Assembly (NCBI GenBank): GCA_017416485.1
Contig: JAFQCH010000006.1
Location: 1 to 64,000, forward strand
Length of the DNA: 64,000 nucleotides
Origin: Clostridia bacterium
Lineage (GTDB): Bacteria; Bacillota; Clostridia; Oscillospirales; Acutalibacteraceae
Direction: 5' to 3'
How positions within the stretch are numbered: the stretch's first letter is position 1; each line of letters starts with the position of its first letter. Positions 294 to 13,104 of the stretch are shown piece by piece. The notes under the pieces were generated by a model that saw only the letters and a list, made by a program, of their open reading frames with translations, had not been told where the DNA came from and did no database searches. The position numbers and the translations under genes were made by a program.

Positions 294-1727
294 TTATCTT
301 TTGCCAAGCTCTGCAAAGATTTTTTCCTTGAGCTGCTGCGGGTCGCAGTTTTTGTTGAGCAGCTTCATGGCCTGGCCGAACAAAGCCATGGCGGCTTTTT
401 CCTTGCCTGCCTTGAAGTCGGCAACGGCTTTCGGATTTTCATCCACAACCTGCTTGACAACTGCATCCACCTTATCGTCATTGCCGCCTGCAAGCAGACC
501 GTTCTGTTCGGCGTATTCCTCGGGCTTTGCACCCTCGGTGAACATGGCGGCAAGGATTCTTGCGGCATTCGGACGGGTGACGGTGCCGTTCTTGACAAGT
601 TCAATCAGTTTTGCAAGGTCGGTGCCGTTGACGGGAAGTTCGTCTGCTGTCTTCTTTTCGCGGTTGCACAATTTCATGCAGTCCGAGAAAATCCAGTTTG
701 CGGCATCCTTGACGGGACAGCCCGCTTTGACGGCATCGTCGAGTACGTCGCAGAGTCTTCTGCTTGCAACAAGTTGCGAAGCGACTTTTTCATCAAGACC
801 TGCTTCCATGTACTGTGCAAGTTTTTCTTCGGGCAGAACGGGCAGCGTGCTCTTTACTTCGTCATACCAAGCATCGTCAATCACGATGGGCATGAGGTTC
901 GGGTCGGGGAAATAGCGGTAATCGCCTGCGGTTTCTTTGTTGCGCATGGCATAGCTCTTGCCCTTGAGGTCATCCCAACGGCGGGTCTCCTGCACAAGTT
1001 CTTCAGTGCCGCTGACAATGGCATCAATATGACGAGCCGATTCGTATTCGATTGCCTTTTCAATAGCGGAAAGCGAGTTCATATTCTTCATTTCCGTGCG
1101 CACACCAAGTTCCTTGGAGCCTTCGGGACGAACGGAGAGGTTGACGTCGCAACGCATGGTGCCCATTTCCCAACGGCAGTCGGAAACACCTGCAAAACGA
1201 AGCAACGAACGCAGTCTTTCGAGATAAGCAATAACTTCCTTTGCACTCGAAAGATCGGGGCGGGAAACGATTTCAATCAGCGGAACAGAAGTACGATTGA
1301 AGTCCACAAGGGTGGTATCCGTCCAATCGTCATGCACGAGTTTGCCTGCATCTTCTTCCATGTGGATCTGCTTGATGCCGATGTATTTTTCGCCGTTGGC
1401 GGTTTCGATTTTCACCTTGCCGTCCACGGCAATGGGAGCAAACCACTGGGTGGTCTGGTAAGAAGCGGGCAGGTCGGGATAATAATAACTCTTTTTGTCA
1501 AAGGTGGTGGTGCGGTTGATCTTACAGTTGAGCATCATGCCTGCGGTCATACCCAATTCCACAACACGGCGGTTCATAACGGGCAGCATGCCCGGCATAC
1601 CGCAACAGGCGGGGCAGACACATTCATTCTGTTCAGAGCCGTATTTTGCACCGCAGGAACAGAAAATTTTGGAGTTTGCGGACATTTCCACATGGACTTC
1701 CAGACCGATGACGGTTTCAAATTTCAT
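294..1727 (-). CDS. gatB: Asp/Glu-tRNA amidotransferase subunit B
   Basis: GatB (477 aa) activates the side-chain carboxylate of misacylated Asp-tRNA(Asn) or Glu-tRNA(Gln) with ATP and amidates it with ammonia supplied by GatA. The N-terminal signature VIGLEVHVEM is present, followed by the cysteine-rich metal site (CSCGAKYG, then CVCPACCGMPGMLPVMN), the kinase-like core and the C-terminal helical/YqeY tRNA-binding tail. The ATG at 1727 is chosen because it starts MKFETVIGLEVH and has a G-rich ribosome site just upstream; an in-frame ATG at 1778 would overlap gatA. Length is normal for the family. It is the last gene of a T-box-controlled aspS-gatC-gatA-gatB operon, 16 nt after gatA. Unlike its partner GatA, it looks intact. 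Confidence 0.96.
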   Translation of the reverse strand: MKFETVIGLEVHVEMSANSKIFCSCGAKYGSEQNECVCPACCGMPGMLPVMNRRVVELGMTAGMMLNCKINRTTTFDKKSYYYPDLPASYQTTQWFAPIAVDGKVKIETANGEKYIGIKQIHMEEDAGKLVHDDWTDTTLVDFNRTSVPLIEIVSRPDLSSAKEVIAYLERLRSLLRFAGVSDCRWEMGTMRCDVNLSVRPEGSKELGVRTEMKNMNSLSAIEKAIEYESARHIDAIVSGTEELVQETRRWDDLKGKSYAMRNKETAGDYRYFPDPNLMPIVIDDAWYDEVKSTLPVLPEEKLAQYMEAGLDEKVASQLVASRRLCDVLDDAVKAGCPVKDAANWIFSDCMKLCNREKKTADELPVNGTDLAKLIELVKNGTVTRPNAARILAAMFTEGAKPEEYAEQNGLLAGGNDDKVDAVVKQVVDENPKAVADFKAGKEKAAMALFGQAMKLLNKNCDPQQLKEKIFAELGKR

Positions 1728-1743: not shown

Positions 1744-2904
1744 TCACAGTTTTGCGGCAAGTGAGAGCAAAGAAGCATCGCTCAGATAATTGCCGACGAG
1801 TTGTACACCCTTGCAAACCACAGCGGGAAGTCCGCTGACGGATGCGGGGGCGGTGTAAAGGCTTTCGTTATAAGCGGTGTCGGTGTCGGTTGCGCTGTAA
1901 GCGGTCTTGGAGCAGACAGGCAGCAGAACGGCATCGAAATCAACAAAAATTTCTGCAAAGCGTTCACAGATCACACGGCGCATACGCAGTGCCTTGTCAT
2001 AAACGGGCATATAATTTTCGGTGGAGAGCACCTCACTGCCGAGAAGCAACTGCATCTTGGTGAGGATGCCGAAGGCTTCGGTGCGGGAATTGGTGTACAG
2101 ATCTTCGATATTATTATAATTCGGGCTACGGTAGCCGTATTTGACACCGTCAAAACGGTTGATGTTGTTGCACAGTTCAGCGGCAGAAAGGGTATTCCAT
2201 GCAGGCTGAGCGAATCTGAGGATTTCATCTTCGATTTCAACAACTTCCACACCCTGTGCTTTAAGATCGGCAATTGCATTGGCAACAACCGTCTTCATTT
2301 CCTCGGAAAGACCGCTGAGGAAAGACACGGGAACAGCCACTTTTTTGATTTCGGCGGCAGCCTTTGCGGAATCAATTCTTTCCTGCGGCAGGCTGGTACC
2401 ATCCTTGTCATCGTGTCCGGCAACAGCGGAAAGAATCTCACCGCATTTGTCAGCAGTTTCTGCAAGAACGCCGACCGTTTCACCCGAGCAGACAGTGGCA
2501 ACAAGACCGTAACGGGATACGGTTGCATAGGTGGGCTTGATGAAGCAAAGACCGTTCAGTGCGGCGGCTCTGCGAGGCGTACCGTTGGAATCGACACAAA
2601 GGCAGGCTTCGGCTTCCTTGATGCTTTCAGCAAGCGCCGAAACAAGGTTGCCGTCTGCATTTCTGTTTTCGCCGTAAAAGGAAGTTTCGCCGAGCAGGTC
2701 GAGCGAGAATTCACCCACGTTGACCTTGCCTGCGATGTCATAACCCGCTGCCTGAATACGGGTGACAATTTCCGCATCAAACAAGCTCATGTAACCGTCA
2801 AGCATTTTGCTGCCTGCGGCGGTGGGGTAATTTTTTGTTAAAATCAAATCGTCAAGCGCAATTTTCTTTGCACCTGCGGTTTCGTTTTTGGCTGTATAAA
2901 TCAT
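1744..2904 (-). CDS. gatA: divergent GatA, amidase triad lost
   Basis: GatA-family protein (386 aa) between gatC and gatB. GatA normally hydrolyses glutamine and passes ammonia to GatB. Family blocks are clear: a GKVNVGEF block (residues 59-66), IKPTYATVSRYGLVA (122-136), NRFDGVKYGYRS and SVSGLPAVV. However, it is about 100 residues shorter than usual. The first ~60 residues are missing. The catalytic Lys of the IKDN motif is Asp18 (IALDDL). The glycine/serine loop GGSSGGS that carries the cis-Ser is replaced by ADGNLVS (about 83-89, with 8 residues deleted just before). The nucleophile of TGGSIRQPA is Thr109 in SNGTPRRAA. ATG 2904 follows GAGGAGG at 2911-2917. The reading frame is open, so it is not a simple pseudogene. 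A glutaminase-dead scaffold is inferred. Confidence 0.9.
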   Translation of the reverse strand: MIYTAKNETAGAKKIALDDLILTKNYPTAAGSKMLDGYMSLFDAEIVTRIQAAGYDIAGKVNVGEFSLDLLGETSFYGENRNADGNLVSALAESIKEAEACLCVDSNGTPRRAAALNGLCFIKPTYATVSRYGLVATVCSGETVGVLAETADKCGEILSAVAGHDDKDGTSLPQERIDSAKAAAEIKKVAVPVSFLSGLSEEMKTVVANAIADLKAQGVEVVEIEDEILRFAQPAWNTLSAAELCNNINRFDGVKYGYRSPNYNNIEDLYTNSRTEAFGILTKMQLLLGSEVLSTENYMPVYDKALRMRRVICERFAEIFVDFDAVLLPVCSKTAYSATDTDTAYNESLYTAPASVSGLPAVVCKGVQLVGNYLSDASLLSLAAKL

Positions 2905-2915
2905 GTTTATCCTCC

Positions 2916-3197
2916 TCATTCCAACAGACGGGGAACCTGCCAGTAGCCGTCGGTGTGTTCGGGCGCACCTTTGAGCAGGTCCTCGCGGGAGAATAATTTT
3001 TTCTTTTCGTCGGCACGAAGCACGTTTGCAAGGGGCAGAACATGTACCATGCGTTCGGTGTTTTCGGTGTCAACGGCTTCGCAGGTTTTCATATCTGCAA
3101 AGCGTTTTTCAAAAAATGCAAGCGTGTTTGCGCGTTCTTCTTCGGTCAGCGCAACACGGTTGAGCTGTTCAAGACGTTGCATCTGCAAGGCATCCAT
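2916..3197 (-). CDS. gatC: Asp/Glu-tRNA amidotransferase subunit C
   Basis: GatC (93 aa) is the small belt-like subunit that wraps GatA and GatB and stabilises the complex. The fold features are visible: an N-terminal helix with LEQLNRVALTEEE, a central helix FEKRFADMKTCEAVDT, then LPLANVLRADE and a C-terminal VPRLLE strand, as in other GatC proteins. Start ATG 3197 is preceded by AAGGAGG at the correct distance. It lies 15 nt after aspS and 11 nt before the chosen gatA start, so it is translated as part of the same operon. Its preservation shows that the complex is probably still assembled even though GatA is degenerate. Confidence 0.93.
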   Translation of the reverse strand: MDALQMQRLEQLNRVALTEEERANTLAFFEKRFADMKTCEAVDTENTERMVHVLPLANVLRADEKKKLFSREDLLKGAPEHTDGYWQVPRLLE

Positions 3198-3212: not shown

Positions 3213-4943
3213 TTATTCTCTGATCTGAATATTGGCTTCGCGAAGCTGCTGTTCGGTGACTTCGCCGGGAGCACCCATCATAAGGTCCTGTGCGTTTCTG
3301 TTAAGCGGGAATGCAATGACTTCGCGGATGGTTTCTTCGCCTGCGATGAGCATGAGCATTCTGTCAACGCCGGGTGCCATACCTGCATGAGGCGGTGCGC
3401 CGTAGGAGAATGCGTTGTACATTGCGCCGAATTTTGCCTTGAGCACTTCTTCATCATAGCCGGCAATTTCAAATGCGCGCTTCATGATTTCGGGATTGTG
3501 GTTTCTGACAGCACCCGAGGACAGTTCCACACCGTTGCAGACGATGTCGTACTGATAAGCAAAGATTTCAAGCGGATCCTTGGTGTTGAGGGCTTCTAAG
3601 CCCCCCTGGGGCATGGAGAAAGGATTGTGCGTGAAGTCGATTTTATTGGTTTCGCTGTTGAGCTCATACATCGGGAAATCGACGATATAGCAGAATTCAA
3701 AAGCATCCTTGTTAATCAGATTCAGCTGTTCGCCGAGCCATGCGCGGATACCGCCTGCAAGCTGATTGACAACACTGATCTTATCGCAGATGAAGAACAG
3801 CGTTTCGCCGTCCTTGATGCCGACCATTTCGGTCAGATTGGCTTTCTGTTCGTCGGAAAGGAATTTTTCGATGGGACCTTTGTACATGCCGTCGGTGTAG
3901 GTCAGGTAGCCAAGACCCTTCATGCCGATGGACATGGCATACTGCAGGGAGTCTTCAAAGAACTTTCTGCTCTGACCCTGGCAGGGAGCAACGATACCGC
4001 GCACGGGCTTGCCCTTGAACAGCGGGAATTCAACACCTGCAAAGAAGTCGGTCAGATCCTGAATGAGAAGCGGATTGCGAAGGTCGGGCTTGTCGGAGCC
4101 GTAATGAAGCATCGCATCTGCAAAGGTGATGCGGCGGAAAGGCGGTTTGGAAACTTCCTTGTCCGTGAACTTTTTGAATGTATTGTAAAGTACGGTTTCG
4201 GCAACGGCAAAAACATCTTCCTGCGTTGCAAAAGCCATTTCAAAGTCGAGCTGATAGAATTCGCCGGGGGAACGGTCCTGTCTTGCGTCTTCGTCACGGA
4301 AGCAGGGTGCGATCTGGAAATAACGGTCGAAGCCTGCGGTCATAAGCAGCTGCTTGAACTGCTGGGGAGCCTGCGGCAACGCATAGAACTTGCCCTTGTG
4401 CTTACGGCTGGGAACAAGATAGTCACGGGCGCCTTCGGGGGAAGATGCGGTGAGGATGGGCGTCTGGATTTCCATAAAACCCTGTTCTTCCATCTGTGCA
4501 CGCAGGAAGCTGATGACCTTGGAGCGAAGCACGATATTATTGTGGATTCTGCGGTTGCGCAGATCAAGATAGCGGTATTTAAGCCTTACCTCTTCACCGG
4601 CTGCGGTGTCGTTGCCGATTTCAAAGGGGAGTGCGTTCAGGCAAGGGCCGAGCACGGTGATTTCGCTTGCCTTGACTTCGATAAGGCCCGTTTCAAGACG
4701 GGCATTGACGGTTTCTTCGTCACGTTCGCAAACCGTGCCGACAACGGAAATAACGGTCTGCTTGCCGAGGCCAGCGAGCATAGAGTCGTCATTCACAACG
4801 ACCTGGGTGATGCCGTAGTGGTCGCGAAGATCCACAAACAAAACGCCTCCGTGGTCACGGATGACTTCGATCCAGCCGGCAAGGGTGACGGTCTGACCGA
4901 TGTTTTCTTTTCTGAGTTCATTACAGGTGTGTGTTCTTAACAT
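3213..4943 (-). CDS. aspS: aspartyl-tRNA synthetase
   Basis: AspRS (576 aa) of the bacterial type. An N-terminal OB-fold anticodon domain (GWIEVIRDHGGVLFVDLRD) is followed by the class II core with motif 2 (FRDEDARQDRSPGEFYQLD), the bacterial GAD insertion (about residues 290-420) and motif 3 (GVDRMLMLIAGEETIREVIAF). It charges tRNA(Asp). Because it is co-transcribed with gatCAB, it may be the non-discriminating type that also makes Asp-tRNA(Asn) for amidation; this is inference. Start ATG 4943 follows a GAAGGAAAA site. A T-box leader at 4987-5235 controls the operon. Confidence 0.97.
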   Translation of the reverse strand: MLRTHTCNELRKENIGQTVTLAGWIEVIRDHGGVLFVDLRDHYGITQVVVNDDSMLAGLGKQTVISVVGTVCERDEETVNARLETGLIEVKASEITVLGPCLNALPFEIGNDTAAGEEVRLKYRYLDLRNRRIHNNIVLRSKVISFLRAQMEEQGFMEIQTPILTASSPEGARDYLVPSRKHKGKFYALPQAPQQFKQLLMTAGFDRYFQIAPCFRDEDARQDRSPGEFYQLDFEMAFATQEDVFAVAETVLYNTFKKFTDKEVSKPPFRRITFADAMLHYGSDKPDLRNPLLIQDLTDFFAGVEFPLFKGKPVRGIVAPCQGQSRKFFEDSLQYAMSIGMKGLGYLTYTDGMYKGPIEKFLSDEQKANLTEMVGIKDGETLFFICDKISVVNQLAGGIRAWLGEQLNLINKDAFEFCYIVDFPMYELNSETNKIDFTHNPFSMPQGGLEALNTKDPLEIFAYQYDIVCNGVELSSGAVRNHNPEIMKRAFEIAGYDEEVLKAKFGAMYNAFSYGAPPHAGMAPGVDRMLMLIAGEETIREVIAFPLNRNAQDLMMGAPGEVTEQQLREANIQIRE

Positions 4944-4986
4944 GGGGTTTTCCTTCTTTCATTTGAGGTGATTGGCAGGGCAAAAC

Positions 4987-5235
4987 AAAAAAGCTGTCTT
5001 GTCCCTGAACATGGGACGAAAGACAGCTTCCGCGGTACCACCCAAATTGACCGTTTGCACGGTCCTCTTTTTTCATCATAACGCGATGCCACGGGCGGTT
5101 CTACTGATCCCGTTGGGACGTTCTTCCGCCAACTCCGAAGTGTTTTTCGATTGCTTCGCTTATCGTCTTGCACCGACCGACGACTCTCTGCAAGCGGACA
5201 GGCAACCTACTCTCTTCATCACAGTTTTTAAATGA
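4987..5235 (-). promoter_or_regulatory. T-box riboswitch (Asp family) upstream of aspS-gatCAB
   Basis: The minus strand carries the canonical T-box AATTTGGGTGGTACCGCGG (5027-5048) immediately before a strong terminator, AAGCTGTC...GACAGCTT with a T run (4987-5029). Upstream are Stem I features, including AGAGAG and GGTCGGTG around 5174-5195. Triplets GAC (5165-5167) and GAT (5162-5164) lie side by side on the 3' side of Stem I and are candidate Asp specifiers, though I did not fold the structure. Uncharged tRNA would stabilise the antiterminator and switch on aspartyl-tRNA synthesis and amidation genes together. Confidence 0.93.
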
Positions 5236-5245
5236 TAATAAATAT

Positions 5246-5274
5246 ATTTAACATATAAAGGGACGGTTTGTCAA
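5246..5274 (-). promoter_or_regulatory. promoter of the T-box operon
   Basis: Minus strand TTGACA (5269-5274), 17-nt spacer and TTAAAT (5246-5251), placed just upstream of the T-box leader. Confidence 0.6.
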
Positions 5275-5304
5275 GGATTTTTTTTGATTTTAAAATAAAT
5301 CATA

Positions 5305-5343
5305 AAAGGAGCTGTAAAAAAACTTGGTTTTCACAGCTCCTGT
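5305..5343 (-). terminator. terminator after secreted hydrolase
   Basis: Stem AGGAGCTGT/ACAGCTCCT lies downstream of the stop at 5361, with T-rich sequence on the minus strand. Confidence 0.75.
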
Positions 5344-5360
5344 ATTTACACGGGATCCGC

Positions 5361-7007
5361 TTATGCGGTCATATTGCCGAAAAACTGACGAAGCAGGGCG
5401 ATCAGTTTTTTGAAAAACTGAAGGATGACTTCAAACGGATTGGTGATCCAGATGCCGTTGGTTGGGTCTTCTTCTGCAACGGGTGCAAACTGACCGTCAA
5501 TGTATTCATGGAACTGCGGAAAACGTTCGTCATCAACCGTCAACTGTCCGTCCGAGGTGAAGAATGCGGTTGCAATGGGATCGATCTGTGTCAGCTGGTC
5601 ATGGTAAAGATTCTTGGAGAACCATGTGGTTTCGGGGAACAGGCAGGTGCCGGCATAAATTTTCTTATCGGCGGAAAGGTATTTTTCATCATAATTTTCC
5701 ATTGCCTGCAGGTCGGCAAGTTGTGCATCGGTAAAGGTATCGCCGACGAGAGTACCAATGGCACCCAAAGACAGTTCCGTGACCGTGCCTCTGGCATCGC
5801 CCGTTACATTGCTGTCGTCAAACAGCGGCACGGTTGCATAGCCGTATTTTGCAAAAACAGCGGTCTTCATACCATATTTTTCTTCGCAACGCTTAAGAAG
5901 CGAAGCATACAAAGGCTTGCCGGTTTCGGGTTCAACGGCACCTAAAAGGTTGTAATAATTTTCGAGTTTTTCAATAAATACAGCATATTCACTGCGGCGC
6001 TCTTCGGTGTTAAAAACAGCCTTTTTGGCGGCATCGTAATAGCGCGCACCGATCATGGACCAGTAGGACGGGAACGAGCCGTAGCACACAAGCGCCGCAC
6101 GCGGGATCAGTTCTTCGCCGATGGCATCAAAGAAAGAGTTCATCAAGGATGTGCCGACTCCGAGCAGCTTCAACTGATTGACCATCGACACAAGAATGGT
6201 CAGGAAATCTTCCACCAACGGATCATCAAATACGTCATGATTGTTGGTATAATAGGAAACAAAGCGGTCAATGGTATCGGCATCAAACTCAACCTGACCC
6301 GACATCAGTGCTCCGATGGCAATATAGCCGTCCAGCGGGGTGGTGTTCAGGCAAAGGTTGTTCATGCGGAACGGGGTATCATACAGTCCTGCTTCGCTTT
6401 TTGCAATGTATGCCATGGCAACATTGGAGCCGTAGCAACGGGCATGAATGTTAACCTTTTCCACGCCTTCTTTTTCGCAGACATATTCCACAAATGTGTG
6501 CAGATCATCTGCCGTATCATACGGGGAATAACGCCAGTCGTATTTGAAATAGTAATAATTAAGGCCACCGGCACCCTTGGACGGTTTCTGAACGGAATAA
6601 TCCCAACAGATAGCACCGTCGGGATCTTCGGCATTGCCGTCAAGCACAAGGTCTTCGTAAATGGGAGCAACCGCACCGATGAGTGCATCCAGGTATTCAT
6701 CGTAATTGCCCGTAATGAGTGCCATGGGAAGTTTGGAAAGAACGGGTTCAAGCTGCGACATAATGTAGTCTTCACGGGTCATGCCCATGGGGGTGTTGAC
6801 ATTGTCAACGGCGATCTTGTTGCCGTTTTCGTCCAGTGCATAGTCGCCGTTTTCATCCAGCTTGTAAACAGGTGTGTTCTGCTTGCCCACAATGTAAATA
6901 ACGGGCAGGTTATTTTCTGCAACCGTTGCCGCAGAAGCAGCCAAAACCGGCACAATACCACAGAAAACCATGCAAGCGACCATTAAAAAAGATAATACGC
7001 GTTTCAT
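5361..7007 (-). CDS. secreted alpha/beta-hydrolase-like protein, Cys at nucleophile elbow
   Basis: A 548-aa protein with a signal peptide (about residues 1-24: charged MKR, hydrophobic core, ASA cleavage region). The body resembles lipase/acyltransferase alpha/beta hydrolases: an early strand LPVIYIVG, a YYFKYDWRYSP segment and the nucleophile-elbow context INIHARCYGSNVAMAY-like around 186-200. There the usual GHSMGG serine aligns with Cys191, so activity may be altered or lost. The protein ends in an amphipathic aromatic/basic helix, FFKKLIALLRQFFGN, similar to tails of two other secreted proteins in this window. Start ATG 7007 follows AGAGGAG. It is monocistronic with its own promoter and terminator. 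Substrate is unknown. Confidence 0.65.
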   Translation of the reverse strand: MKRVLSFLMVACMVFCGIVPVLAASAATVAENNLPVIYIVGKQNTPVYKLDENGDYALDENGNKIAVDNVNTPMGMTREDYIMSQLEPVLSKLPMALITGNYDEYLDALIGAVAPIYEDLVLDGNAEDPDGAICWDYSVQKPSKGAGGLNYYYFKYDWRYSPYDTADDLHTFVEYVCEKEGVEKVNIHARCYGSNVAMAYIAKSEAGLYDTPFRMNNLCLNTTPLDGYIAIGALMSGQVEFDADTIDRFVSYYTNNHDVFDDPLVEDFLTILVSMVNQLKLLGVGTSLMNSFFDAIGEELIPRAALVCYGSFPSYWSMIGARYYDAAKKAVFNTEERRSEYAVFIEKLENYYNLLGAVEPETGKPLYASLLKRCEEKYGMKTAVFAKYGYATVPLFDDSNVTGDARGTVTELSLGAIGTLVGDTFTDAQLADLQAMENYDEKYLSADKKIYAGTCLFPETTWFSKNLYHDQLTQIDPIATAFFTSDGQLTVDDERFPQFHEYIDGQFAPVAEEDPTNGIWITNPFEVILQFFKKLIALLRQFFGNMTA

Positions 7008-7040
7008 AGTTGATTCTCCTCTTTTTTAACTTTTATATAC

Positions 7041-7069
7041 ATTATACCCCTGTTATGTAAATTTTTCAA
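7041..7069 (-). promoter_or_regulatory. promoter of the secreted hydrolase gene
   Basis: Minus strand TTGAAA (7064-7069), 17 nt, TATAAT (7041-7046), about 35 nt before the start codon. Confidence 0.7.
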
Positions 7070-7116
7070 GAATTTTACAGAATTTTTCTTCCTTTTTTTA
7101 TTGATGTGAAAAAAAC

Positions 7117-7145
7117 TTGACTATAATCTTATCTTTTGATAAAAT
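7117..7145 (+). promoter_or_regulatory. promoter of the hexuronate operon
   Basis: TTGACT (7117-7122), 17-nt spacer and TAAAAT (7140-7145) upstream of uxuA. No clear operator palindrome was recognised. Confidence 0.65.
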
Positions 7146-7197
7146 TAAAGTATATGTGCCCTTTTAAATTATGAAAATAATCGGGAGGATATTCATT

Positions 7198-8250
7198 ATG
7201 AAAAGCTCATTCCGCTGGTACGGCGACAGCGACCCCGTAACCCTGGAATACATCCGTCAGATCCCCGGCATGCGTTCCATTGTTTCCGCAGTTTATGATG
7301 TCAAACCCGGTGAAGTATGGCCGGAAGAAAGCATCAAACACATTGCCGACCGCTGCAAGGAAAACGGCCTTGTGTTCGATGTGGTTGAATCCATCCCCGT
7401 GACGGAAGAAATCAAGCTCGGCAGACCCGAACGCGAGCGCCACATTGAAAACTACTGCGAATCCATCCGCCGCTGTGCAAAATACGGGGTCAAATGCGTG
7501 ACTTACAACTTCATGCCCGTGTTTGACTGGACAAGAACACAGCTCGACAAAGAAGCCGAAGACGGTTCAACAAGCCTCGTCATGTATTGGGAACAAATGA
7601 AAGGTCTTGATCCCTTAAAAGACGATATCCACCTGCCCGGTTGGGATTCTTCTTACACACAGGATCAGGTTCGTGAACTCATCAATGCCTACGGCGAAAT
7701 CGGTGAAGACGGATTATGGGAAAACATTGAATATTTCCTTAAGAAAGTGATTCCCGTTGCCGAAGAATGCGGCGTCGTGATGGCGATTCACCCAGATGAC
7801 CCTCCGTATCCGATTTTCGGACTGCCCCGCATCATCACCTGCGAAGAAAATCTTGACCGTTTCCTGAAAATCATGGACAGCCCCGCCAACTCCCTTTGCT
7901 TCTGCACGGGTTCACTCGGTTGCCATCCGAAAAACGACATGCCGAGCCTTGTCCGCAAGTATTCTGCCATGAACCGCATCGGATTCATGCACCTGCGCAA
8001 CATCAAAATTCTGCCCGATACCTCGTTTGAAGAATCGGGCCACCTGACGAGCAAAGGCTCGCTGGACATGAACGCCATTATCAAAGCCCTTGTGGAAACA
8101 GGCTTTGAAGGCTATTTCCGTCCCGACCACGGCAGAATGATCTGGGGCGAAACGGGCAAACCCGGCTACGGTCTGTTTGACCGCGCACTCGGCTCCGCCT
8201 ACATCAACGGCCTCGTTGAAGCCAACGGCGGTGTCATCGAATTGAATTAA
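7198..8250 (+). CDS. uxuA: mannonate dehydratase
   Basis: UxuA (350 aa) dehydrates D-mannonate to 2-keto-3-deoxygluconate in glucuronate breakdown. The TIM-barrel family signature is clear: start MKSSFRWYGDSDPVTLEYIRQ, VYNF-like YGVKCVTYNFMPVFDW, MAIHPDDPPYPIFGLPRI (metal-ligand region), CFCTGSLG and the C-terminal RPDHGRMIWGE. ATG 7198 is preferred over an in-frame ATG at 7171 because CGGGAGGA lies just upstream of it and the protein then starts at the family N terminus. It heads the uxuA-uxuB-eda-MIF-kdgK operon; no uronate isomerase (uxaC) is in the window. Confidence 0.95.
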   Translation: MKSSFRWYGDSDPVTLEYIRQIPGMRSIVSAVYDVKPGEVWPEESIKHIADRCKENGLVFDVVESIPVTEEIKLGRPERERHIENYCESIRRCAKYGVKCVTYNFMPVFDWTRTQLDKEAEDGSTSLVMYWEQMKGLDPLKDDIHLPGWDSSYTQDQVRELINAYGEIGEDGLWENIEYFLKKVIPVAEECGVVMAIHPDDPPYPIFGLPRIITCEENLDRFLKIMDSPANSLCFCTGSLGCHPKNDMPSLVRKYSAMNRIGFMHLRNIKILPDTSFEESGHLTSKGSLDMNAIIKALVETGFEGYFRPDHGRMIWGETGKPGYGLFDRALGSAYINGLVEANGGVIELN

Positions 8251-10136: not shown

Positions 10137-11165
10137 ATGGCAAAAGTAATTACCTTCGGTGAGCTTATGCTCCGTTTGCAACCCTATAACTATGAACGCT
10201 TCGTGCAGTGCGATCACGTTGAATTCACATTCGGCGGCGGCGAAGCCAATGTGGCGGTGTCGCTTGCCAACTACGGCATGGATGTCGCTTATGTGACGAA
10301 ACTGCCGACCCATTCCATCGGGCAGGCAGCTGTGAACAGCCTGCGCCGTTACGGTGTGGACACCACCAAAATCGTCCGCGGCGGCGAAAGAGTGGGCATT
10401 TATTTCAACGAAAAAGGTGCTTCGCAGAGAGGATCTGTCTGCATTTATGACAGAGCAGGCTCCGCTATTCAGAAGGCAAGTGCCGAAGATTTTGACTGGG
10501 ATGCAATTTTTGACGGTGCAGAGTGGTTCCATTTTACGGGCATTACCCCCGCACTGGGCGAAAACCTTGTGGAAATCTGCAAACAGGCTTGCGTTGCCGC
10601 AAAAAAGAGAAACATCAAGATTTCCTGCGACCTCAATTACAGAGGCAAACTCTGGACGAGGGATCAGGCAAGAGCCGCTATGACGGAACTTTGTCAGTAT
10701 GTGGACGTTTGCATTTCCAACGAGGAAGATGCAAAAGACGTGTTCGGCATTGAAGCGGAAGCCACCGACATTTATGCAGGCGCAATCAACCGTGATGGCT
10801 ACAAGAGTGTTGCCCGCCAGCTTGCCGACAAGTTCGGTTTTGAAATGGTTGCCATCACACTGCGTGAAAGCCGGTCCGCATTCGACAACGGCTGGAGCGC
10901 CATGCTTTATAATGTAAAAGAAGACGAATACTGCTTCTCAAAAAAATATGAACTGCACATCATCGACCGTGTCGGCGGCGGTGACAGTTTCGGCGGCGGC
11001 CTGATTTATTCGCTGATGAACGGCAAATCCACACAGGCGGCTGTTGAATTCGCGGTTGCAGCAAGCGCACTCAAACATTCCATCGAAGGCGACTACAACA
11101 TGGTCAGCGTTGCGGAAGTTGAAAAGCTTGCCGGCGGCGACGGATCAGGCAGAATTCAGAGATAA
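10137..11165 (+). CDS. kdgK: 2-keto-3-deoxygluconate kinase
   Basis: A 342-aa PfkB/ribokinase-family sugar kinase that phosphorylates KDG to KDPG. Signatures are the N-terminal FGELMLRLQP, the GGGEANVAVSLANYG motif (sugar binding), SCDLNYRGKLW and the C-terminal anion hole/catalytic base motif DRVGGGDSFGGGLIY. An ATG at 10131 overlaps the ribosome site GAAAGAGG too closely, so the ATG at 10137 (8 nt spacing, MAKVITFGE) is preferred. It is the last gene of the operon and is followed by a terminator. Confidence 0.92.
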   Translation: MAKVITFGELMLRLQPYNYERFVQCDHVEFTFGGGEANVAVSLANYGMDVAYVTKLPTHSIGQAAVNSLRRYGVDTTKIVRGGERVGIYFNEKGASQRGSVCIYDRAGSAIQKASAEDFDWDAIFDGAEWFHFTGITPALGENLVEICKQACVAAKKRNIKISCDLNYRGKLWTRDQARAAMTELCQYVDVCISNEEDAKDVFGIEAEATDIYAGAINRDGYKSVARQLADKFGFEMVAITLRESRSAFDNGWSAMLYNVKEDEYCFSKKYELHIIDRVGGGDSFGGGLIYSLMNGKSTQAAVEFAVAASALKHSIEGDYNMVSVAEVEKLAGGDGSGRIQR

Positions 11166-11171
11166 CACAAA

Positions 11172-11193
11172 GCCCCCGCACAGGGGGTTTTTG
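11172..11193 (+). terminator. terminator of the hexuronate operon
   Basis: Short GC-rich stem CCCCC/GGGGG (11173-11187) followed by TTTTTG directly after the kdgK stop. Confidence 0.75.
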
Positions 11194-11194
11194 T

Positions 11195-11420
11195 AAATGC
11201 AAAATGCACGAATGCAAAATGCAAAATTATAGGGTCGCCGGCGCTCCGATTATAGATTAAAAACAACTTTGATGTTAATACAAAGCCATCTTTTTTTAAT
11301 TTATTTGTATAAAGATTATTGCAAAATTACCATTATTCGCACAAAATAAAAATTTACATCTTCTATAAATGCCAACGCAGTTCCGATAATTTTGCATTTT
11401 GCATTTTCCATTTTGCATTC
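11195..11420. repeat. inverted-repeat intergenic element
   Basis: Left arm 11195-11230 (repeats of AATGCAAA ending AAAATTAT) is the imperfect inverse of the right arm 11386-11420 (ATAATTTTGCATTTTGC...). About 155 bp of AT-rich DNA with no gene lies between them. Each arm is itself a tandem of a 9-10 nt unit. The structure resembles a small non-coding repeat; no transposase or clear target duplication is seen. Confidence 0.6.
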
Positions 11421-11472
11421 AGGGCACAGCCCGACAAACCGCAATTTCCCTGTTTCAGAAAGGATGTTTTTT

Positions 11473-13104
11473 ATGAACACTGAAAAAATCAAACCCGCAC
11501 GCGGGTCATCCGTACACCCTGACCACATCATGCTGTCCATCAACGGCGATGCACGCCACACCATGACCGTGACATGGAGAACGAGCACCGATGTGGAAAC
11601 GGGCTATTGTTTATACAAAGAAATCGGCACGAAAGATTTTCTTCGTTGTGATGCCGAAAACCATATTTTTGAAAGCGACATTGACTGCAGCCGCATTTTC
11701 TCGGCACATATTCCGGATTTAAAGCCCGGCACAAAATATGTTTACACCTGCGGCAGTGACGAACACAGAAGCGAGGAATTCACCTTTGAAACCGAACCTG
11801 AAAACTGCACAAAATTCAGTTTTGTCTGCGTGTCCGATCAGCAGTGCGGATGGCCGTTTCTGACCCCCGACTATTCGGGCTTGTGCAAATTTTTAAAAGA
11901 TGTTCTTGCAAAACACCCCGAAGTGCGTTTTATTTACACAGGCGGCGACAACACCGACTGCGGTCAGCACGAACAGCAGTGGAACGGTCTGTTCAGTGGC
12001 ATTGCGGGCATTGCAGAGAGCATTCCCTTTATGATGACCATGGGCAACCATGATAACCGTGGTTTCCGTAACTACCGTGAACACAATTCAGAAGGACGTT
12101 TCTATGCCGAACCTGCCACCTTCTTCAACACGCAGTTCAAGGGTGCTTATGCCTCCAACGGCCCCGAGGGCTGGACACCCGAAAATTACACCTTCGATTA
12201 CGGCAACTGCCATTTCACCGTGTACGGTGTGAATGAACCCGTTCTGGTCAACGAATGGTCTGCAAAGGACCTTGTAAGCTGCGACAAAACATGGAAAATC
12301 GCATCCTATCACTTCCCCATCTGCTATTCCATTCCCGAGGGCAGCAACTACGATGCCTACCCGATGATGATGCAGTGCATGGAAATGAACGACCTGATGT
12401 TCTCGGGGCATGAACATAATTTTGCCCGTTCCTTCCCGCGACGCAACGAACAGCTCTATGACCGTCCGTCACAGGGCACGGTGCACTACACGCTCGGCAA
12501 TGCAAACGGACATCCGCCCGGGTCGCGTTCCATTCCCAAGGTATGGCACTGCGCATTCAACCCGCAGGAAGAATACCGCTATTTCTACACCATCGTGGAA
12601 GTGGACGGTAACAGAATGACACTGACTTCCTACTTCGATGACGGCAGAATCGTCGATCAGTGCACCATCGACAAGGACAAAGACGAAATCCGTCCCTATG
12701 CCGTGGCTCCCGTGTATTCACAGACGAGAATGATGTACAAAGGGGCAGAGCCGGGTCTTGCCGCTTGCCAGACTCCGCCCGAAAACAAGGACGGCACATG
12801 GTTTATCCCCGCTTCGGTGCTCTCGCACTACATCGGTGCAGATGTGCAGACCGACAAGGGAACAATCAGCATTTCGATGTACGGCACCACCGCCGTGTTC
12901 ACCGAAGACAGTGAAAAATATGTTGTCAACGGCGAAGAAAAATCCCTGTGTACCGCTGTTTACAGAGGAAACCGCGGGCAGCTGTATGTACCCGTGGATG
13001 ATTTCTGCAAGGCATTCAACATGAAATGGTGCTACGCAGAGCGTAATAATTTTATTTCCATCGAAAAAGAAAGCGAGGACAAACCTGTCCCCGCACAGCC
13101 GTAA
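11473..13104 (+). CDS. metallophosphoesterase, purple-acid-phosphatase-like
   Basis: A 543-aa protein. Residues about 10-110 form a fibronectin-like N-terminal domain as in purple acid phosphatases (MTVTWRTSTDVETGY). The metallophosphatase core follows with SDQQ, TGGDNTDCG, MGNHDN, ASYHFPICYS and FSGHEHNF, covering the usual metal-binding blocks. The C-terminal ~120 residues (from WFIPASVLSHYIGA) resemble the copper amine oxidase N-terminal-like domain. There is no signal peptide, although homologues with such domains are usually exported. ATG 11473 follows AAAGGATG. Substrate is unknown. Confidence 0.8.
   Translation: MNTEKIKPARGSSVHPDHIMLSINGDARHTMTVTWRTSTDVETGYCLYKEIGTKDFLRCDAENHIFESDIDCSRIFSAHIPDLKPGTKYVYTCGSDEHRSEEFTFETEPENCTKFSFVCVSDQQCGWPFLTPDYSGLCKFLKDVLAKHPEVRFIYTGGDNTDCGQHEQQWNGLFSGIAGIAESIPFMMTMGNHDNRGFRNYREHNSEGRFYAEPATFFNTQFKGAYASNGPEGWTPENYTFDYGNCHFTVYGVNEPVLVNEWSAKDLVSCDKTWKIASYHFPICYSIPEGSNYDAYPMMMQCMEMNDLMFSGHEHNFARSFPRRNEQLYDRPSQGTVHYTLGNANGHPPGSRSIPKVWHCAFNPQEEYRYFYTIVEVDGNRMTLTSYFDDGRIVDQCTIDKDKDEIRPYAVAPVYSQTRMMYKGAEPGLAACQTPPENKDGTWFIPASVLSHYIGADVQTDKGTISISMYGTTAVFTEDSEKYVVNGEEKSLCTAVYRGNRGQLYVPVDDFCKAFNMKWCYAERNNFISIEKESEDKPVPAQP

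Follow-up and report, generated by a model that had tools for sequence, protein, structure and literature searches.

Clostridial GatA homologues without the amidase catalytic triad in conserved operons for a putative ammonia-dependent Asp-tRNA(Asn) amidotransferase

The GatA homologue encoded in the window (the whole 64,000-nucleotide stretch of DNA that was analysed) has lost the catalytic triad, and this degenerate state is conserved throughout a clade and is not an oddity of the window genome, G000. We refer to GatA homologues without the triad as pGatA. Our preferred reading, which we consider likely but which rests on no biochemistry, is that the pGatA operon encodes a GatCAB specialised for Asp-tRNA(Asn), whose ammonia does not come from GatA and is most probably free NH3/NH4+, the dead GatA being kept as a scaffold and ammonia port.

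Results

The pGatA operon and its probable substrate

The operon has the order T-box(Asn)-aspS2-gatC-pgatA-gatB (Table 1); this gene set, the Asn type of the T-box and the type of the AspRS, as judged by sequence, are shown. By gene content it qualifies as a GatCAB: gatC, gatB and a homologue of gatA share the operon, and the active site of GatB is intact. The sequence-only reading had described GatB and GatC as normal, and the equivalog scores and our residue table confirmed this: all the GatB residues checked near the Mg, ATP and tunnel sites, together with the zinc cysteines, are kept. The gatB reading frame opens at 1778, with its probable start at 1727. The T-box lies upstream of aspS2, and its specifier loop, GAA-N-AAC-A, is kept in loci L033-L036. 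No T-box reaching the RF00230 gathering score was detected at the loci where AspRS and GatC are fused. The T-box core motif GGTGGWACCGCG is present also near canonical gatA genes in L022, L024 and L101.

Non-discriminating (ND) bacterial AspRS are marked by a His within the anticodon-binding domain, at the x position of its RDx(G) motif, as is known from work on the Pseudomonas enzyme. This His (RDHGG) was observed in all 36 AspRS of operons with a degenerate GatA, and Leu, in the form R(D/N)LG, in all 12 housekeeping AspRS compared. A second aspS-gatC fusion, adjoining a canonical GatA in G177 (L102, 1437-4972), carries RDMGG, with neither His nor Leu. Because of the Asn T-box, the RDHGG-type AspRS, the AspRS–GatC fusions and the presence of GlnRS in 29 of the 30 genomes tested (the sole exception is 71% complete), we infer that the operon serves the conversion of Asp-tRNA(Asn) to Asn-tRNA(Asn). 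A role in Glu-tRNA(Gln) amidation is disfavoured by the same distribution of GlnRS. The proposal made earlier, that Asn- or Gln-tRNA formation is independent of glutaminase, thus gained support from GlnRS, the T-box and the ND-type AspRS in its Asn part and not in its Gln part.

Table 1. Coordinates of the features discussed, in the window and in other loci
Locus	Feature	Position	Strand	Evidence or remark
Window	gatB, transamidase/kinase subunit	294..1727	-	TIGR00133 502 bits, cut-off 314.8
Window	pgatA, GatA homologue without triad or glutamine-binding residues	1744..2904	-	386 aa; PF01425, TIGR00132, alignments
Window	Thr109 codon, replaces nucleophile Ser (S. aureus Ser178)	2578..2580	-	alignment
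Window	Asp18 codon, replaces catalytic Lys (S. aureus Lys79)	2851..2853	-	alignment
Window	gatC	2916..3197	-	TIGR00135 68.5 bits, cut-off 47.1
Window	aspS2, aspartyl-tRNA synthetase, ND type by RDHGG	3213..4943	-	NF001750 781 bits
Window	T-box leader, specifier read as AAC (Asn)	5009..5231	-	Rfam RF00230 127.3 bits, gathering 93
L039	asparaginase/GatD-like gene	4800-5852		beside pGatA operon
L045	asparaginase/GatD-like gene	6294-7343		beside pGatA operon
L038	AlaX-like gene	10527-11681
L041	AlaX-like gene	5445-6632
L044	AlaX-like gene	4705-5862
L050	AlaX-like gene	10627-11778
L051	AlaX-like gene	11666-12823
L093, L094, L096	AlaX-like genes
L103, L106, L120, L125, L116	tRNA(Asn) with G1-C72, in AsnRS-bearing Clostridia and in G340

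Residues lost from the window pGatA

The pgatA frame is uninterrupted and its coordinates are correct. The most likely start is the ATG at 2904, with AGGAGGAT just before it; an in-frame ATG at 2919 would give a protein of 391 aa. A score of 173 bits against PF01425 makes pGatA a clear GatA homologue, and the closest PDB sequences are the GatA chains of 4wj3 and 2df4. The 235 bits obtained against TIGR00132 are far under the 481-bit equivalog cut-off, and the NCBIfam criterion is therefore unmet. With the triad missing, the protein is a GatA by descent and not by catalytic definition.

Alignments of pGatA were made to the GatA proteins of S. aureus, P. aeruginosa and A. aeolicus and, separately, to canonical GatA from clostridia; residue references follow S. 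aureus numbering unless the 386-aa numbering of pGatA is indicated. The sequence-only reading had described an uninterrupted GatA-family frame that lacks the triad and the first ~60 residues, with Lys replaced by Asp18, GGSSGGS by ADGNLVS (about 83-89) and the nucleophile Ser by Thr109. The frame, profiles and alignments upheld the description, and the replacements held exactly against both the structural GatAs and the relatives. The cis-Ser loop GGSSGGS itself is missing, ADGNLVS being the nearest alignment columns. At the glutamine-binding positions Arg358 has become Gln285 and Asp425 has become Ser348, and Tyr309 is replaced by Trp236 (386-aa numbering). In the GatFAB structure Gln is bound by R334 and D418, the yeast counterparts of Arg358 and Asp425, and the residues lost in pGatA are those that bind and cleave Gln there (PMC4027206). 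A stretch of ~10 residues close to the C-terminus (CGFDxxGxPIG in canonical GatA) is also absent. The AlphaFold model of pGatA, built from only five sequences, is weak; its top Foldseek matches are GatA chains, but because its mean pLDDT is 58 no residue geometry was taken from it.

Conservation of the degenerate state across Clostridia

Searches covering 200 genomes from the family and 393 from the class yielded 31 loci, spread over nine families of the class, that share the degenerate state: 19 family genomes (G000 included), three goat-gut MAG contigs and nine genomes from eight other families. Profile scores of these loci were 523-655 bits, against 319 bits for the next-best GatA. The residue losses are shown throughout. 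The catalytic Lys is replaced in every pGatA that covers the site (Asp in 28, Glu in one and Asn in one; one locus is truncated), the cis-Ser loop is deleted throughout the clade in the alignment, and the Gln-binding Arg and Asp are gone in 31/31. The nucleophile position is occupied by Ala in 18 loci, Thr in six, Ser in six and Phe in one. Asn107, Arg112 and Glu142 are invariant in 30/30 pGatA and not in canonical GatA. Every locus has an adjoining GatB with an intact active site, with GatC and an ND-type AspRS wherever the sequence covers them, and a single fused protein combines AspRS and GatC in 18 loci.

Selection on these genes is also shown. Comparison of the window pGatA with its three nearest relatives gave dN/dS values of 0.08-0.16, which indicate purifying selection, and values across all four operon genes were 0.03-0.25. 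Since 30 further loci share the degenerate state and dN/dS is 0.08-0.16 in the closest set, the state is not an assembly artefact; sequencing error, which had been named in advance as a possible refutation, and a pseudogene are likewise ruled out.

One could argue that pGatA is still a hydrolase of glutamine or another amide, with a new site made from Asp18, Asn107, Arg112, Glu142 and Trp236. The clade-only invariance of Asn107, Arg112 and Glu142 and the purifying selection speak for this. However, the nucleophile position is mostly Ala, the Gln-binding Arg and Asp are lost, and a scaffold and tunnel function explains the conserved residues equally well, so that we regard a new hydrolase as very unlikely.

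Two other types of degenerate GatA were observed in aspS-gatA-gatB operons. In L084-L086 the Lys is replaced by Asp or Glu and the Ser by Lys, and the loop is gone; in L087-L090 the protein has 445 aa, the Lys is replaced by Thr or Gly and the loop is gone, with Ser and Arg kept. These types may be intermediates of triad loss, which is no more than a possibility. A conserved acid in place of the catalytic Lys occurs in two separate branches. In a quick GatA tree the pGatA rows were joined with 99% support, in a ladder running from canonical GatA through L087-L090 and L084-L086 to pGatA, and in a quick GatB tree all 38 GatB of degenerate-GatA operons formed one clade (99). The trees are consistent with a single ancient loss within a specialised operon lineage, with the reservation that the branches are long and only quick trees were made.

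Routes to Asn-tRNA in the relatives of the window genome

No AsnRS over the cut-off and no canonical GatA were found in nine genomes, 90-98% complete and from six families (G198, G190, G075, G126, G340, G416, G443, G321 and G314). For the last five of these, only one match in the class-wide search underlies the statement that canonical GatA is absent. With both AsnRS and canonical GatA absent, no route to Asn-tRNA other than the pGatA complex is visible in these genomes. GlnRS was present in all four of them that were tested. In G126 neither AsnA nor AsnB was found over the cut-off, and the sole AspRS is of the ND type. The co-occurrence pattern itself is shown; that it reflects glutaminase-independent use is an inference, for which the gene content of these relatives is the strongest evidence. 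Since most of the genomes are MAGs, any one absence may be wrong in a few per cent of cases. It is conceivable that AsnRS or canonical GatA was missed by chance in one MAG, but hardly in all nine, and we consider this explanation unlikely.

AsnRS is also present in G000 and in about half of the family's pGatA genomes, and a canonical GatCAB in five. AsnA, the ammonia-dependent asparagine synthetase, was found in 0/19 pGatA family genomes and in 10/11 genomes without GatCAB; it therefore seems that Asn is made in one of two alternative ways, depending on the lineage. The presence of AsnRS and canonical GatCAB beside pGatA would fit a decaying duplicate, an operon without current amidation function in cells where AsnRS does the charging. 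This reading is opposed by the low dN/dS of the four genes, the GatB active site, the Asn T-box and the AspRS–GatC fusions, and by the nine genomes in which the pGatA complex is the only visible route, and it is in our view very unlikely.

The U1-A72 pair of tRNA(Asn) is the one read by GatCAB (PMC9976931, PMC4206432). We found tRNA(Asn) with U1-A72 in four AsnRS-lacking genomes (G190, G126, G443 and G321), in G001 and in G245, where it occurs alongside a weak AsnRS-like match. The pair is G1-C72 in the AsnRS-bearing pGatA genomes G145, G133 and G056, where a second tRNA(Asn) was not exhaustively sought. G340 is an exception, with a G1-C72 tRNA(Asn) although no AsnRS was found there. A search for tRNA(Asn) in G000, which was not exhaustive, recovered none. 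As G1-C72 is unused by known GatCABs, it is the main point against the amidation reading for AsnRS-bearing species.

Gene content of the window genome

In a PF01425 search of G000 (97% complete) pgatA was the sole amidase-family gene. The suggestion that a second full-length GatA exists elsewhere therefore failed, and such a gene is excluded as far as this completeness allows. We infer that no GatA-type glutaminase is able to act in G000; other glutaminase families were outside our survey. The search for asnS and glnS that had been proposed with the sequence-only reading detected two AsnRS genes and GlnRS. Since G000 has AsnRS, the pGatA complex is not its only charging route and its necessity there is unshown. 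We infer that in G000 the complex probably provides a tRNA-dependent asparagine supply, induced by uncharged tRNA(Asn).

AsnA was searched for in G000 and not found. AsnB sits on a contig of about 12 kb (C7, locus L136) that carries an asnB-asnS pair; AsnB is missing from the sister genome G187. The GC content of this contig is 0.43, compared with 0.49 for the window, and its tetranucleotide correlation is 0.77, compared with 0.93-0.97 within the window. The contig is likely either foreign to the MAG or recently acquired.

Discussion

Proposed mechanism

Without an enzyme assay, it is an inference that the complex assembles, that it carries out amidation, where its ammonia comes from and that the old site holds an ammonium port. 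In the mechanism that we propose, the non-discriminating AspRS2 would charge tRNA(Asn) with Asp, and GatB would use ATP to activate the side chain of Asp and then amidate it to give Asn-tRNA(Asn). pGatA would be a pseudoenzyme that keeps the GatA fold and its position in the complex and neither binds nor hydrolyses glutamine; if so, ammonia has to originate outside the complex. Free NH3/NH4+ would enter the existing GatA–GatB tunnel via the opened former active site, lined by the Asp that replaces Lys. The conserved Asp, Asn and Arg at the old site may form the ammonium port, for which there is no reliable model.

Free NH3/NH4+ is, by inference, the simplest donor. Of what the sequence-only reading raised, Asn-tRNA formation independent of glutaminase is the best reading left, with strong comparative support from the nine near-complete relatives; the donor itself is inferred. 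Ammonium is present at millimolar concentrations in gut and rumen contents, and three close pGatA relatives are goat-gut MAGs. Yeast GatFAB with GatF truncated near the GatA site loses its glutaminase, and its NH4Cl-dependent transamidation is above that of the full-length enzyme (PMC4027206).

Asparaginase-like neighbours as possible alternative donors

The other option raised was a separate protein as donor: an L-asparaginase/GatD-like protein could dock on GatB or pGatA and give ammonia by hydrolysis of Asn or Gln, as archaeal GatD does for GatE. If the substrate were asparagine, the pathway would draw on both products, Asp and NH3. A PF00710-type gene adjoins the pGatA operon in eight loci (L039, L045, L049, L051, L093, L094, L096 and L098), and for the neighbouring proteins examined the gatD_arch score fell only slightly short of the asnASE_I score. 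PF00710 was found in 9/10 AsnRS-lacking and 1/9 AsnRS-bearing pGatA family genomes (Fisher p 0.001, uncorrected for relatedness), and over 30 genomes, too, the gene tracks the lack of AsnRS. Against this, the scores of the neighbours are far under both cut-offs, and the distribution could also arise if Asn catabolism is harmless where charging does not use free Asn. Moreover, our genome search found no PF00710 protein in eight pGatA genomes (G000, G187, G133, G177, G014, G081, G145 and G056), so that such a protein is not the general donor and plays no part in the window genome. As a universal donor it is rejected for G000, and as an explanation of the clade it is unlikely. Because eight operons have an asparaginase-like neighbour, free ammonia is perhaps not the whole story, and at those loci the neighbour may serve the pathway as a source of NH3 and Asp.

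Comparison with known systems

Free ammonia as donor would set the pGatA complex apart from described GatCABs, which are glutamine-dependent; that it is not is a prediction from sequence alone. It shares with bacterial GatCAB the three subunits, their fold and linkage, a normal GatB and GatC and an ND-AspRS partner as in the asparagine transamidosome, and differs in pGatA, which lacks its first ~60 residues along with the Lys, the cis-Ser, the glutamine-binding Arg and Asp and, in most cases, the Ser. C. acetobutylicum likewise has an extra AspRS and GatCAB under T-box control for tRNA-dependent Asn synthesis (Saad 2012, cited in PMC4206432), and the passages of PMC4206432 that bear on it make no mention of a lost GatA active site. 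Archaeal GatDE also joins a GatB-like subunit to a non-amidase ammonia supplier, a relative of which (GatD/asparaginase) lies near eight pGatA loci; however, GatA and GatC are missing from GatDE, its substrate is Glu-tRNA(Gln), and G000 is without a GatD relative. The truncated yeast GatFAB shares impaired glutaminase and retained or raised NH4Cl transamidation, but it is a laboratory mutant with an intact triad and not a natural enzyme. We infer that the pGatA complex is a GatCAB-like system with a changed nitrogen source. None of the literature searched reports a GatA that lacks the triad, and to our knowledge no pGatA-like clade has been described.

A bolder reading, towards which the evidence leans only slightly, is that one ancient AspRS2–GatCAB lineage in Clostridia is a natural ammonia-dependent Asp-tRNA(Asn) amidotransferase that has given up glutamine as donor. 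In several families it would be the sole proteome-wide source of Asn-tRNA, drawing on ammonia present in the gut or, in lineages that have one, on a neighbouring asparaginase by which imported Asn is split into the Asp and NH3 required. Those tRNA-dependent amidotransferases that have been described possess a glutaminase of their own, and a tunnel that couples glutamine hydrolysis to the tRNA site is the textbook feature of GatCAB. If the proposal is true, the scaffold role of GatA is separable from its chemistry, ammonia entry into the tunnel can be tested in a natural enzyme, and translation of Asn codons is tied to ambient ammonia. The effect would reach beyond one genome to certain gut Clostridia, including some lineages with no other visible route to Asn-tRNA, and predictions of pathways from genomes in which GatABC counts as a single functional unit (e.g. 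PMC9026213) may misassign the nitrogen source in such gut bacteria.

Eight pGatA operons also carry an AlaX-like alanyl-tRNA editing gene immediately 3' of gatB or of the asparaginase gene (Table 1).
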